IMG/VR virus record: IMGVR_UViG_3300027969_002234
Coordinates: 1 to 34,160 of that record
Direction: 5' to 3' (one strand)
Source of the DNA: a virus
Length of the DNA stretch: 34,160 nucleotides
Shown here: positions 356 through 13,280 of the stretch, in pieces
How positions within the stretch are numbered: position 1 is the stretch's first letter
Layout of the letters: every line of letters begins with the position of its first letter
The notes under the pieces: generated by a model
The model's input: only the letters and a program-made list of their open reading frames with translations
Told to the model about the DNA's origin: nothing
Database searches by the model: none
Position numbers and translations under genes: made by a program

Positions 356-1114
356 ATGTTTATTTTTAAAAAATCAAAAGTTACTGTAGACTGTTTTATT
401 GACAGACAAGTGGTCTTTGATCTGTTTAAAATTGATCATGCTATTAAATTTATTCCAGACGAGTTTAAGGCATTAAAGCCAACTTGGGATATTCCTGTTG
501 AACCTGGCAATCCTAAATCAAAGTTAACAGTGCCTGCGACAACAATTAAACGGTGTCCCGGATTCAGCAACTTGTTTAATACAGGATTTATAATTCCGTC
601 GTGGACGGACTTTGGAATCGAAATGTTTGAGGACGAGAAGTTTAACAGACATGATCCTATGAATAATTTACATATGGATAATCATCCTCGTCCAATGTTA
701 TGGAGCAATTTGTACAAAGATTACGGACATGTTAAAATTAACAGTCCGTGGATTATACAAGAAAAGTCAGGAGTTCAGTTTAGCTGGAACCGTTGTGATT
801 GGCATAATACAGAACGTGCTGATAAATTTCAAGTCATGTCCGGTGTTGTAGATTTTAAGGCTCAACACGGCAGTCATATAAATGTGTTTGTTAAGAAAAA
901 TAGTGTATTACAAATAAAGGCAGGCGAGCCGTTAGTACACGTTACACCATTAACAGAAAAAGAATTAGTGTTAAAGTGCCATGTACTAAGCCCAATGGAG
1001 TATAGAAAGATTTGGGCTACCTATGCCGACAGGGCAATGTACGCAGGACAACATAAAGCATTGCTAAAAGCAAAAGAAGATAGCAAATGCCCTTTTAGAA
1101 TATTCGGAGTGTAG
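356..1114 (+). CDS. Conserved-looking phage protein of unknown function (252 aa)
   Basis: The start chosen is the ATG at 356, because the longer frame runs back through the tRNA-Gly gene. The protein is soluble and rich in aromatic residues, with no signal peptide or membrane segment. Notable stretches are CPGFSNLFNTGFIIPSW (about residues 67-83), a His/Asp-rich segment HMDNHPRP (106-113) and a C-terminal part resembling a beta-barrel, IKAGEPLVHVTPL (187-199). I associate this pattern with uncharacterised phage proteins but cannot assign a reaction. The stop codon lies inside the following tRNA-Pro gene, so message and tRNA share ten bases. There is no clear Shine-Dalgarno; a TATAAA (343-348) sits just upstream. 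Confidence 0.8.
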   Translation: MFIFKKSKVTVDCFIDRQVVFDLFKIDHAIKFIPDEFKALKPTWDIPVEPGNPKSKLTVPATTIKRCPGFSNLFNTGFIIPSWTDFGIEMFEDEKFNRHDPMNNLHMDNHPRPMLWSNLYKDYGHVKINSPWIIQEKSGVQFSWNRCDWHNTERADKFQVMSGVVDFKAQHGSHINVFVKKNSVLQIKAGEPLVHVTPLTEKELVLKCHVLSPMEYRKIWATYADRAMYAGQHKALLKAKEDSKCPFRIFGV

Positions 1115-1181
1115 CGCAGTCTGGTAGCGCACCTGGTTTGGGACCAGGGGGTCCAAGGTTCGAATCCTTGTACTCCGACCA
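1105..1181 (+). tRNA. tRNA-Pro (anticodon TGG)
   Basis: Acceptor CGGAGTG (1105-1111) pairs with TACTCCG (1171-1177). Anticodon stem CCTGG/CCAGG encloses loop TTTGGGA with TGG at 1139-1141. T arm CAAGG-TTCGAAT-CCTTG; discriminator A1178; CCA encoded (1179-1181). The first ten bases overlap the 3' end and stop codon of the preceding coding gene. Confidence 0.95.
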
Positions 1182-1188
1182 TAGTTAT

Positions 1189-1267
1189 CGCGGAGTAGGG
1201 GAGTCTAGCCGTCCCCGGTAGTCTCATAAGCTACAGATCGCAGGTGCGAATCCTGCCTCCGCAACCA
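1189..1267 (+). tRNA. tRNA-fMet (initiator-type, anticodon CAT)
   Basis: The sequence folds as a tRNA with six acceptor pairs GCGGAG/CTCCGC, while the first position is an unpaired C1189 opposite A1263. The C1-A72 mismatch is the hallmark of bacterial initiator tRNA and blocks use as an elongator. Anticodon CAT is at 1225-1227 in loop CTCATAA. T arm GCAGG-TGCGAAT-CCTGC; CCA encoded (1265-1267). It lacks the three G-C pairs normally found in the initiator anticodon stem (here GTAGT/GCTAC), and its D loop is unusual. Confidence 0.85.
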
Positions 1268-1970: not shown

Positions 1971-3482
1971 ATGAACAAACCATTTAAAGTAGCCATTGTA
2001 GGAGCAGGTGCCGCAGGTATTTTTACTGCGGCCGCAATTAAAAGAAACATTCCAAATGTAGAAGTTGAGATTGTATTTGATCCTAAACTTAAACATATTG
2101 GTGTGGGCGAATCCTTGGGATTCAGTGCCCGAAGTTTTTTTAGAGAAGTACTGGGATTATCAAACGAAAAAGACTGGCTTGATCAAAGTCAGTCAACACG
2201 CAAATTTGGCATTAGATTCCTAGGTTGGGATAACACTACTACTCCTAGTTTTTGGGGTCCGGGCGCAAGTCAATCTGTAGGATTTAACGGACCCAATAGT
2301 ACAGAATCATTAGAAGAGATTTGGCTTGATTTATACAAGCGAGGATTACGTACCGCTGATGACTTTCAGTACGACTTTCCGTTTGCTAGATTCTGTACAA
2401 ACACAATGTCTTTAGATAGAATAAAGTATACGTACCATATCAATGCTGAATACATCAAAGACATAGTACACTCAAAAGTAGGATTACCATCGGGCGTCAA
2501 AGAACGCCCAGTTCCCGTTAGAGAAGTTGTTGTTAATGACAACGGTGTTGATCATCTGATACTAGAAGATGGAACTACTGTTCATGCCGATTTGTTTATT
2601 GACAGCACAGGGTTTGGAAAGCTAATTGTAAAAAAGTTACCATTTGAATTTGAACCTGCGGACGAGTCGTTTAATGATACAGCAATCGTTGGTCCGTATC
2701 GTTATCAAGACGATAGTGAACGCAATAGAGTGTTTACTGATCACGTGTGTATGGATTGGGGATGGCGCTTTAGTGTTCCCCTAACTGAACGCACAGGCGA
2801 AGGCTACATTTCAAACAGTAGAATATTTTCCAATCACGATCAACTTATCTCTGAGTGGGAAAAGAGCGCAGGAAAGAAAGGCGTCATTGGTCGTGTACTA
2901 AAATGGGAGCCTGGATACTTAAAAGATGTATTTGTTAAGAACTGTATTGTAATTGGACTAGGTCATGGAATGATTGAACCGTATGACGCAAATGTTTTTA
3001 CTACATCTCTTAAAGTTATTCGAGAATTAGTTGACCTGTTGAAAGCAGACACTGAGTATAACTTAGACTGGAAGGCAGAATTTAACAAGCGTACTACATC
3101 GTATGTCAATGATGTTAAGTTAAGGATTAGTACAGCAATGCACTTATCCCCAAGAAAAGGCGAGTATTGGGATATCATGCGAGAAGTTGGACGTAAAAAT
3201 AATACACTGGAAAAGTTAACAGAGACTATTTTTTATAGTCCTCCAGAGTTTGGTATTTGGAATAGACCAATTGGACAACACTCATATCTTGAAATGCTAC
3301 AGTATTACGGCTATGATCTAAAAACTGTAAAGACAAGAGAGCTAGTGTTAAATCCTTTCAAAGAGAAAAAAGCGTTAGAAGTCTTTAAAAGTATCAACAA
3401 CTATCAACGTCAACTAGATTTGTCGGAGTGCCACAGATTGATGCCTCGCCGTAGTTCAATGGATAGAACGATTCTCTCCTAA
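1971..3482 (+). CDS. Flavin-dependent tryptophan-halogenase-like protein
   Basis: A 503-aa protein of the tryptophan 7-halogenase family, which uses FADH2, O2 and halide to halogenate aromatic substrates. The N-terminal FAD motif GAGAAG is at 11-16, and GVGES at 44-48. K78 in STRKFGIRFLGW aligns with the catalytic lysine of PrnA (K79). The WxWxIP signature appears as W265-R-F-S-V-P270, with the second Trp replaced by Phe. The catalytic glutamate of PrnA (E346, in EPLEST) aligns with D339 in IEPYDAN. The intact FAD fold and Lys favour a redox enzyme, but halogenation is not certain. Such genes occur in phages with unknown substrates. The last 12 codons overlap tRNA-Arg(CCT), and the stop codon falls in the tRNA anticodon loop. 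Confidence 0.85.
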   Translation: MNKPFKVAIVGAGAAGIFTAAAIKRNIPNVEVEIVFDPKLKHIGVGESLGFSARSFFREVLGLSNEKDWLDQSQSTRKFGIRFLGWDNTTTPSFWGPGASQSVGFNGPNSTESLEEIWLDLYKRGLRTADDFQYDFPFARFCTNTMSLDRIKYTYHINAEYIKDIVHSKVGLPSGVKERPVPVREVVVNDNGVDHLILEDGTTVHADLFIDSTGFGKLIVKKLPFEFEPADESFNDTAIVGPYRYQDDSERNRVFTDHVCMDWGWRFSVPLTERTGEGYISNSRIFSNHDQLISEWEKSAGKKGVIGRVLKWEPGYLKDVFVKNCIVIGLGHGMIEPYDANVFTTSLKVIRELVDLLKADTEYNLDWKAEFNKRTTSYVNDVKLRISTAMHLSPRKGEYWDIMREVGRKNNTLEKLTETIFYSPPEFGIWNRPIGQHSYLEMLQYYGYDLKTVKTRELVLNPFKEKKALEVFKSINNYQRQLDLSECHRLMPRRSSMDRTILS

Positions 3483-3519
3483 AGAATAGATATAGGTTCG
3501 ATTCCTATTGGGGAGGCCA
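3445..3519 (+). tRNA. tRNA-Arg (anticodon CCT)
   Basis: Acceptor CTCGCCG (3445-3451) pairs with TGGGGAG (3509-3515), with one G-G mismatch at position 4. D arm GTTC/GAAC. Anticodon arm ATTCT-CTCCTAA-AGAAT gives anticodon CCT. T arm ATAGG-TTCGATT-CCTAT; discriminator G3516; CCA encoded. The 5' half overlaps the end of the halogenase-like gene. Confidence 0.88.
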
Positions 3520-3522
3520 AAT

Positions 3523-4086
3523 ATGTTTATAGAAATTCCAAACTACCTAACGCAAGAAGACACTAAGTTTATTAGCGATACTTTTAAGCAGTACACAACC
3601 AATGATCCTAAAGATCTAATGTACAATCGAATGGGCAAGAGTGTAGGGTTTGATGATATCAAAACGTACAACACACCAGATTTACAAGAATTAGACGCCA
3701 GGATGTTTCCTATATTTTATGACATTGTTAAAAACATAGTTATACCAAATTTTGAACCTGAGTTTGAAGTAGAGGACTCTGGAATAGAATATCATTGGTA
3801 TAAGCCCGGAGACATTTGTAAACCACACATAGACGGCGCGGCCCCCATTAGGGATAAAAATAATTCTGTACTTAGATTTGCTTCAGTTATTTTACATCTA
3901 ACTACTAATACTGACGGTGGAGACATTGTATTCCCCAAACAAGATAAAAGATTTAAAACTGAGGCAGGAAAGCTATTAGTGTTTCCGCCGCACTCTTACT
4001 ATCCACATTACACAACTCCGTCAAATCAAGACAGAGAAATATTAATGACATGGATGGTATACAGAGGCCTTACTGTAATCAAATGA
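3523..4086 (+). CDS. 2OG-Fe(II) oxygenase, prolyl-4-hydroxylase-like
   Basis: A 187-aa protein with the double-stranded beta-helix iron site of 2-oxoglutarate dioxygenases. H102 and D104 form the HxD motif (PHIDG), H162 is the distal ligand (YPHYTTP), and R171 (DREI) is positioned to bind 2-oxoglutarate. Length and motif spacing fit P4H-type oxygenases. Likely chemistry is hydroxylation; the substrate is unknown. The ATG lies three bases after the tRNA-Arg CCA with no Shine-Dalgarno, so the mRNA 5' end could be made by tRNA processing. One of six such oxygenase-like proteins in the window. Confidence 0.85.
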   Translation: MFIEIPNYLTQEDTKFISDTFKQYTTNDPKDLMYNRMGKSVGFDDIKTYNTPDLQELDARMFPIFYDIVKNIVIPNFEPEFEVEDSGIEYHWYKPGDICKPHIDGAAPIRDKNNSVLRFASVILHLTTNTDGGDIVFPKQDKRFKTEAGKLLVFPPHSYYPHYTTPSNQDREILMTWMVYRGLTVIK

Positions 4087-4326: not shown

Positions 4327-4403
4327 GGGCCGTTAGCTCATTAGGTTAGAGCAGTGGACTCATAATCCATTGGTGGAGTGTTCGAATCACTCACGGCCCA
4401 CCA
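4327..4403 (+). tRNA. tRNA with anticodon CAT (probably Ile2, possibly elongator Met)
   Basis: Acceptor GGGCCGT (4327-4333) pairs with ACGGCCC (4393-4399). The anticodon loop CTCATAA gives CAT. D arm AGCTC/GAGC is canonical; T arm GAGTG-TTCGAAT-CACTC; CCA encoded. Full pairing at position 1 rules out the initiator type. The sequence around the loop (GGACTCATAATCC followed by TTGGT) looks like bacterial tRNA-Ile2, whose CAT is converted by TilS to read ATA. Confidence 0.95.
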
Positions 4404-12320: not shown

Positions 12321-13280
12321 ATGTTAAAGAAAGTAATAGCAATTATGACACTAGTATTAGCAAGTCACGCACACGCTTGGGAACCAAACGGTCCAGTTAA
12401 AGCGTTTATCGGCTTTGGGCCAGGATCGGGAAATGAAATTGCATTTCGCGGTGTTGCCGCCGAAGTTGAAAGAAACAATCCTAAGGTAAATTTTGTTATT
12501 CAAACAATGCCAGGTGCAGGTGGCAATATTGCCCTAGCACATGCGGTAAAGTTGCCGGCAGACGGAATGACATTTACTGTGTCTGGTCTAAGTACTTACG
12601 CATTTGATCCAGTGTTCTATCCAGAGCTAATGAAATTTACGCAAGGAGATTTATATCCTGTACTAGGAATTGCACGTAGTCCATTTGTTATCGTTGCTCG
12701 TCCCTCGAGCAAAGTGAACACAGTAAAAGAACTTGCGGCCCATTTAAAATCAGGTGAACAAGTCTTTATTGGAATTAGCGGGGCTGCTCCGTTCCTTGTA
12801 CATAGTATGTTAATGGAAAAGGCTGGTGGAAACTATGATACTGTACAAACTGTTATGTATAAAGGTCCACAAGAATCTGCTATGGCCGCTGCAACCGGCG
12901 AAGTTGAGTTTTCTATTATGCCAGTAACTGTGAGCGCACCTTTAATCGCAGGAGGAAAAGTTAAACTAATCGGCCTAGTAGGGGACAAGAAAATGCCACA
13001 GTTTCCAAATGCTGAACTTGTTAAAGATACACTACCAGGTGTAGTGTTTAATGCCATGTGGAATATTACTCTACCTAAGGATACGCCCAAGGATGTAGTT
13101 GACTGGTATGTAGCAGAATTTGGCAAGGCAATACATAGTGAAAATGTTAAAAAATACTTTGATCAAAATTATATGTACGCAGATCCTTTTAACGAACCAG
13201 TAAGTCACGCAAAATGGATTGCTACATTTAAAAGTCAAATTATGCCAGTCGCTGAAAAAGCCAAACCTCGATTCCGCTAA
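12321..13280 (+). CDS. TctC/Bug-family periplasmic solute-binding protein
   Basis: A 319-aa protein with a Sec signal peptide (basic MLKK, hydrophobic core, cleavage after A19 in HAHA|W). The mature part has family features: PGSGNEIAFR near the N terminus, MPGAGGNIA (about 63-71), and VMYKGPQESAMAAATGEVEF, the YKG...A..L.GEV-type segment. TctC proteins bind tri- and dicarboxylates or related acids for the tripartite tricarboxylate transporters TctABC. No TctA/TctB gene is present, so the phage protein would feed host membrane components. Shine-Dalgarno AAGGAAA. Probably acquired from a proteobacterial host. Confidence 0.9.
   Translation: MLKKVIAIMTLVLASHAHAWEPNGPVKAFIGFGPGSGNEIAFRGVAAEVERNNPKVNFVIQTMPGAGGNIALAHAVKLPADGMTFTVSGLSTYAFDPVFYPELMKFTQGDLYPVLGIARSPFVIVARPSSKVNTVKELAAHLKSGEQVFIGISGAAPFLVHSMLMEKAGGNYDTVQTVMYKGPQESAMAAATGEVEFSIMPVTVSAPLIAGGKVKLIGLVGDKKMPQFPNAELVKDTLPGVVFNAMWNITLPKDTPKDVVDWYVAEFGKAIHSENVKKYFDQNYMYADPFNEPVSHAKWIATFKSQIMPVAEKAKPRFR

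Follow-up and report, generated by a model that had tools for sequence, protein, structure and literature searches.

The tRNA gene at positions 1189 to 1267 of the virus record analyzed here (the window, 34,160 bases) is, by all determinants readable from its sequence, an initiator tRNA gene, except that the run of three G:C base pairs in the anticodon stem (3GC) is missing; its elbow is non-canonical but apparently compensated. Sequence comparison places it in a widespread viral group in which A18 and G55 occupy the elbow, and the virus carrying it is a virus of bacteria. We consider it likely that the gene encodes a functional auxiliary initiator, which would be charged and formylated by the host and whose compensated elbow would do without pseudouridine 55 (Psi55) and Gm18.

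The presence of a tRNA at this locus, as originally predicted, is borne out by ARAGORN, which called a tRNA-Met(cat) at exactly these coordinates, and by an Rfam match to RF00005 with 48.6 bits (gathering score 29, E=1.3e-7). The cloverleaf can be laid out as CGCGGAG TA GGGG AGTCTAGCCGT CCCC G in its 5' part and GTAGT CTCATAA GCTAC AGATC GCAGG TGCGAAT CCTGC CTCCGCA A CCA in its 3' part (Table 1), and both the C1-A72 mismatch and the CAT anticodon pointed out in the original prediction are found in this layout. The tRNA-Pro(TGG) gene 7 nt upstream is 95-99% identical in most related contigs and is probably located on one transcript with the initiator tRNA.

Table 1. Coordinates of the initiator-type tRNA gene, its arms and two further tRNA genes in the window
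Feature	Position	Strand	Basis
Initiator-type tRNA gene, anticodon CAU, encoded CCA end at 1265-1267	1189..1267	+	ARAGORN, Rfam, cloverleaf
Acceptor strand 5', CGCGGAG; C1, G2 and C3 are formylation determinants	1189..1195	+	sequence; list in PMC7949028
Acceptor strand 3', CTCCGCA and A73; A72 at 1263 mismatched to C1	1257..1264	+	sequence; relatives
D arm, GGGG-AGTCTAGCCGT-CCCC; G11:C24; A18 at 1207 and G19 at 1208 instead of GG	1198..1216	+	sequence; relatives
Anticodon arm, GTAGT-CTCATAA-GCTAC; A29:U41, G30:C40, U31.G39	1218..1234	+	sequence; relatives
T arm, GCAGG-TGCGAAT-CCTGC; G55 at 1246 in place of near-universal U/Psi55; C56 at 1247 retained	1240..1256	+	sequence; comparison
tRNA-Pro(TGG), 7 nt upstream of the initiator tRNA	1105..1181	+	ARAGORN
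Second CAU tRNA, G1:C72 and C11:G24, elongator type	4327..4403	+	ARAGORN, sequence layout

In E. coli, formylation is guided by C1xA72, G2:C71, C3:G70 and A11:U24 (PMC7949028). The first three are matched exactly by the window tRNA, and its 11:24 pair is G:C, which differs from a strict A11:U24 but is purine:pyrimidine as in initiators; A73 and a CAU anticodon within a CUCAUAA loop are also present. Among 19 distinct viral tRNAs that share its 11-nt D loop (hereafter the relatives), positions 1 and 72 are mismatched in all 19 (CA in 15, AA in three, UA in one), G2:C71, C3:G70, G30:C40, G19:C56, U54-A58 and G15-C48 are each found in 19/19, and 11:24 is GC in 15 and AU in four. Across these relatives, both partners of a base pair have changed in concert in the acceptor, anticodon and T stems, for example at 4-69 (GC/AU/UA/CG) and 27-43 (GC/CG/UA/AU). 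Every readable formylation determinant and this conservation with compensating stem changes thus uphold the predicted initiator (fMet) type, and the co-varying stem pairs together with the invariant features indicate that the gene has been kept for its structure and is no relic.

Compared with E. coli tRNAfMet, the window tRNA shares C1xA72, G2:C71, C3:G70, A73, the CUCAUAA loop, a purine11:pyrimidine24 pair, G30:C40 and G19:C56. It differs in the pairs 29-41 (A:U) and 31-39 (U.G), both of which are G:C in E. coli, in having A18.G55 instead of G18.Psi55, and in its 11-nt D loop ending in CGU (U21).

The pairs 29-41, 30-40 and 31-39 of the window tRNA are thus AU/GC/UG; the predicted absence of GGG/CCC from the anticodon stem is correct, though the middle pair, G30:C40, is retained. 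Reviews describe 3GC as present in all initiators and name 29:41 and 30:40, but not 31:39, as the pairs contacting G1338 and A1339 of 16S rRNA (PMC4611024), and in wild-type E. coli, initiation by tRNAs with engineered 3GC mutations is poor (PMC7949028). We collected initiators with a pattern that fixes the CTCATAA loop, the variable loop, part of the T loop and the G70-C71-A72-A73 end and leaves the stems free, which yielded at least 92 viral and at least 115 bacterial initiators (88 and 91 distinct sequences, respectively). Carriage of initiator tRNAs by phages, described as rare in the original prediction, is therefore not exceptional: to these 92 or more initiator-type tRNAs in viral contigs, BLAST adds similar genes in 171-515 annotated phage records. 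Among the matches listed, full 3GC is found in 17/88 distinct viral and in 71/91 distinct bacterial initiators (Fisher p=1e-15), a contrast between sampled database records that would be shrunk, not created, by viral records that may be integrated or host-derived. Broken down by pair, again among the matches listed, G:C occurs at 29-41 in 31/88 viral versus 72/91 bacterial sequences, at 31-39 in 54/88 versus 90/91, and at 30-40 in 84/88 versus 91/91. As judged from these counts, viral initiators as a rule have lost the two outer pairs and kept the middle one. Nor does 3GC strictly define bacterial initiators, since 20 of the 91 distinct sequences among the matches listed lack the full run; an AU/GC/GC stem is frequent there (22/115 among the matches listed). 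The suggestion that loss of 3GC alters initiation is weakened by this frequency, by the 71 of 88 distinct viral initiators (among the matches listed) that lack 3GC, and by the presence of the ribosome-contacting G30:C40 in 19/19 relatives. At the stem-loop junction, a pair other than G31:C39 is found in 34/88 distinct viral initiators versus a single one of 91 bacterial ones (among the matches listed), and base 39 is G, not C, in all 19 relatives of the window tRNA.

The contact between G18 and Psi55 is near-universal and is one of those that hold tRNA in its L shape. In the window tRNA, the D loop has A18 and G19 instead of GG(18,19), and the T loop reads TGCGAAT instead of TTCGAAT, which places G at position 55; the latter feature was absent from the original prediction. 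Canonical G18 with U/Psi55 is thus missing, and the other canonical elbow elements G19:C56, U54-A58 and G15-C48 are all present. The D loop had been noted as odd, and it is indeed unusual in lacking GG(18,19); however, it is not a lone defect but one half of a coupled A18/G55 swap. In a sample of viral initiators chosen for neither base 55 nor the D loop, AG with G55 was found in 9/92 and GG with U55 in 81/92 (among the matches listed), and the mixed combinations GG with G55 or AG with U55 did not occur among the 92 listed initiators of this sample, which is blind to base 55. When viral initiators were selected by G55, AG was found at positions 18-19 in 108 out of 108 readable ones. Scans for combinations of 18 and 55 covered 2.9 million viral contigs and detected A18 with G55 in at least 120 stretches and G18 with G55 in none, neither overall nor in the D-loop type of the window tRNA. 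A18 with U55 gave 15 pattern matches in these contigs, of which only L384 and L390 are complete tRNAs; the other 13 were rejected as exceptions because they lack the D arm and 5' half, some of them resembling recombined tRNA 3' ends. L433, the sole A18 and U55 match in the window's D-loop type, was likewise discarded, as its 5' half is missing. The coupling is also visible in a near-minimal pair, L355 and L097, which, apart from 18 and 55, are distinguished by a single compensated base pair, amounting to 2 of 51 non-loop positions. Given this strict coupling across the viral scans, the simplest reading is that A18.G55 represents a compensated two-site replacement of the G18.Psi55 contact; covariation and the known positions of both bases suggest that A18 and G55 touch physically. 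Since A18 and G55 make Gm18 and Psi55 impossible, the presence of TrmH and TruB should make no difference to the tRNA at these positions.

The swap is unevenly distributed. Among viral contigs picked without regard to G55, this base was found in 9/61 initiators and in none of 241 elongators with a readable T loop, and in contigs chosen for G55 a few elongators also carry it (four Ser records, His, Ala). None of the other 11 tRNAs in the window has G55. It is absent from the 115 bacterial initiators among the matches listed, and the A18/G55 form was not found in 516 bacterial genomes (398 Pseudomonadota and 118 Bacteroidota). Two isolates with A18/G55 are the Brevundimonas phages Kikimora and Gurke, whose tRNA-Met is likewise initiator-like, with a CAU anticodon and positions 1 and 72 mismatched; it differs from the window tRNA in having C1xU72, C11:G24, a GC/GC/AU anticodon stem and a 9-nt D loop. 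Klebsiella phage Sugarland, Pseudomonas phage Milchi and E. coli phage phi92 share the relaxed anticodon stem and long D loop, in Sugarland and phi92 even the same AU/GC/UG stem, but, unlike the window tRNA, all three retain GG(18,19) and U55. Other changed 18/55 contacts are known from staphylococcal cell-wall tRNA-Gly and from selected suppressor tRNAs with altered D and T loops, which differ from the window initiator in isotype and function. A literature search that had most subscription papers outside its reach returned no description of A18-G55 in natural tRNAs or of a relaxed 3GC in phage initiators, a silence that is weak evidence for the novelty of both.

As a working initiator, the tRNA would be transcribed together with the adjacent tRNA-Pro and trimmed by host RNase P, for which the elbow pair G19:C56 would still be available. 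Host MetRS would charge it via the CAU anticodon, and host formyltransferase would formylate it by way of C1xA72, G2:C71, C3:G70 and R11:Y24. IF2 would then deliver it to the 30S P site, where G30:C40 would supply a share of the conserved contact. In general, G30:C40 is known to be contacted in this site, and G19:C56 is known to be used by RNase P and other factors that read the elbow. The elbow would be held by A18.G55 instead of G18.Psi55, and the mature tRNA would receive neither Psi55 from TruB nor Gm18 from TrmH. The virus would thereby add a supply of initiator that is unlike the host's in its elbow and in pair 31-39, where anticodon stem and loop meet. The missing 3GC, with A:U at the ribosome-contacting pair 29:41, speaks against a working initiator.

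Two explanations concern why the tRNA differs and are therefore not exclusive of its being a working initiator. The first, to which we give a little less than an even chance, is that a functional initiator has drifted neutrally or nearly so, with alternative flanking pairs and alternative 18-55 combinations working about equally well and bringing no special advantage. It is consistent with the many different 29-41 and 31-39 pairs seen around a constant G30:C40 among the viral matches listed and with the bacterial tolerance of AU/GC/GC (22/115 among the matches listed). It also agrees with a rough tree of 237 tips built from 51 stem and linker positions, in which base 55 switches state about 30 times versus 72 times with shuffled labels, a number that is trustworthy only as "several" because the tRNAs are too short. 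However, pure drift does not predict that G55 is confined to initiators in the unselected viral sample (9/61 versus 0/241 elongators), that the swap is absent from bacteria (0/115 initiators among the matches listed, 0/516 genomes), or that 39=G is invariant in the family of the window tRNA.

The second explanation, which we regard as unlikely, is escape from host defences that target tRNA: VapC-type nucleases or elbow-reading enzymes would miss the phage initiator, escape would rest on the inverted 31-39 pair and the elbow swap, and translation would continue after the host initiator had been destroyed. We know of nothing that cuts tRNA at the elbow. VapC toxins of several bacteria cleave tRNA at the border of anticodon stem and loop, with tRNAfMet among their targets (PMC8522696); this junction is where viral initiators depart from G31:C39 (34/88 versus 1/91 in bacteria, among the matches listed) and where all 19 relatives have G at 39. 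Phage tRNAs have been proposed to evade anticodon nucleases, but phages are reported to refrain, as a rule, from carrying the very tRNA (fMet) that is attacked at its anticodon (PMC10264068). Moreover, the CTCATAA loop itself is unchanged in the window tRNA; the viral samples were all selected by this loop, which puts loop changes outside their reach. We slightly favor drift with functional constraint over escape.

A bolder proposal, which we hold to be rather improbable, is that of a virus-specific initiator class in which A18.G55 has repeatedly replaced G18.Psi55, rendering the elbow independent of TruB and TrmH and/or unreadable to host factors that target tRNA. If true, viral translation would start with a tRNA that the cell cannot inactivate or regulate as usual. 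Viral initiators break the 3GC and elbow rules in an orderly manner, in that the flanking pairs vary, G30:C40 stays and 18 and 55 switch together. Those with A18/G55 are natural double mutants for the roles of Psi55, of the 18-55 contact and of 3GC in initiation, and with Kikimora and Gurke the old question why phages carry initiator tRNAs becomes testable in cultured phage-host pairs.

Three further readings have very little in their favor. That the gene encodes an elongator Met or Ile2 (lysidine) tRNA with a chance mismatch is highly unlikely: the CAU anticodon is common to all three kinds of tRNA, and an elongator-like C11:G24 occurs in 14/92 viral A72 tRNAs (among the matches listed), but R11:Y24, G2:C71, C3:G70 and A72 in the window tRNA and the unpaired 1-72 in all relatives led us to reject both identities, and the window already encodes a separate elongator-type CAU tRNA (Table 1), which presumably resembles tRNA-Ile2 more than elongator Met. 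A decaying or inactive gene is scarcely credible, as the second-lowest covariance score among 11 Rfam tRNA matches in the window and the non-consensus D and T loops are set against intact stems, an encoded CCA, the compensated changes across the 19 relatives, the strict 18/55 coupling and the near-identical contig L002, in which all 79 nt of the tRNA are unchanged and the adjoining spacer is mutated; given the unchanged copy and the comparison of relatives, a pseudogene was rejected. The originally proposed link to leaderless messages found no support, and an initiator specialized for them is most improbable: a Shine-Dalgarno match precedes only 21/52 chosen starts in the window, so part of its closely packed genes, which lie on one strand, may start without one, but at random positions the share is 15%, well below that of the chosen starts, a missing Shine-Dalgarno sequence does not equal leaderlessness, and the features of the tRNA are common to many unrelated phages, so that nothing ties them to such messages.

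Several other viral tRNAs deviate from canonical forms. A group of viral CAU tRNAs (L011, L013, L042 and L252, for example) combines the initiator-type 1-72 mismatch with C11:G24 in the D stem, as in elongators, and frequently with GC/GC/AU in the anticodon stem; by sequence, they are apparent hybrids of initiator and elongator features. The initiator-like tRNAs of two E. coli phages, phi92 (L359, 1501-1579) and JohannJBalmer (L360, 301-379), have a TTCATAT loop, in which A38, bordering the stem-loop junction cut by VapC, is changed to U, and C1xU72 or C1xC72. In seven viral contigs (L377, L378, L380, L381, L383, L385 and L389) a shared upstream sequence is joined to a canonical tRNAfMet 3' half, as would be expected from integration into the host initiator gene.

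In the window, the stretch directly 3' of the initiator tRNA (1310-1366) resembles a tRNA 3' half (GTGGG TTCGAGT CCCGG) with no 5' half called, and is also present in L002. At 1868-1959, ARAGORN called a tRNA-Ile(TAT) with a long variable arm of class II shape (hairpin GCGC-CAGATTA-GCG), for which Rfam gave only a sub-threshold tRNA-Sec match of 29.5 bits; twelve long tRNA-Ile(TAT) genes like this one are found in the compared viral loci, with variable-arm motifs like CAGATTA, CAGATAA or TAGATAA. Positions 1-262, which contain no called tRNA and no Rfam match at gathering score, are conserved in pieces (75-91%) in about 16 related viral contigs and possibly represent a structured RNA. By eye, the product of 12321-13280 resembles a tricarboxylate-binding (TctC-like) periplasmic protein, and 1971-3482 and 3508-4086 encode a tryptophan-halogenase-family protein and at least one 2OG-Fe(II) oxygenase, which suggests that the phage is a large environmental one, rich in accessory metabolic genes.
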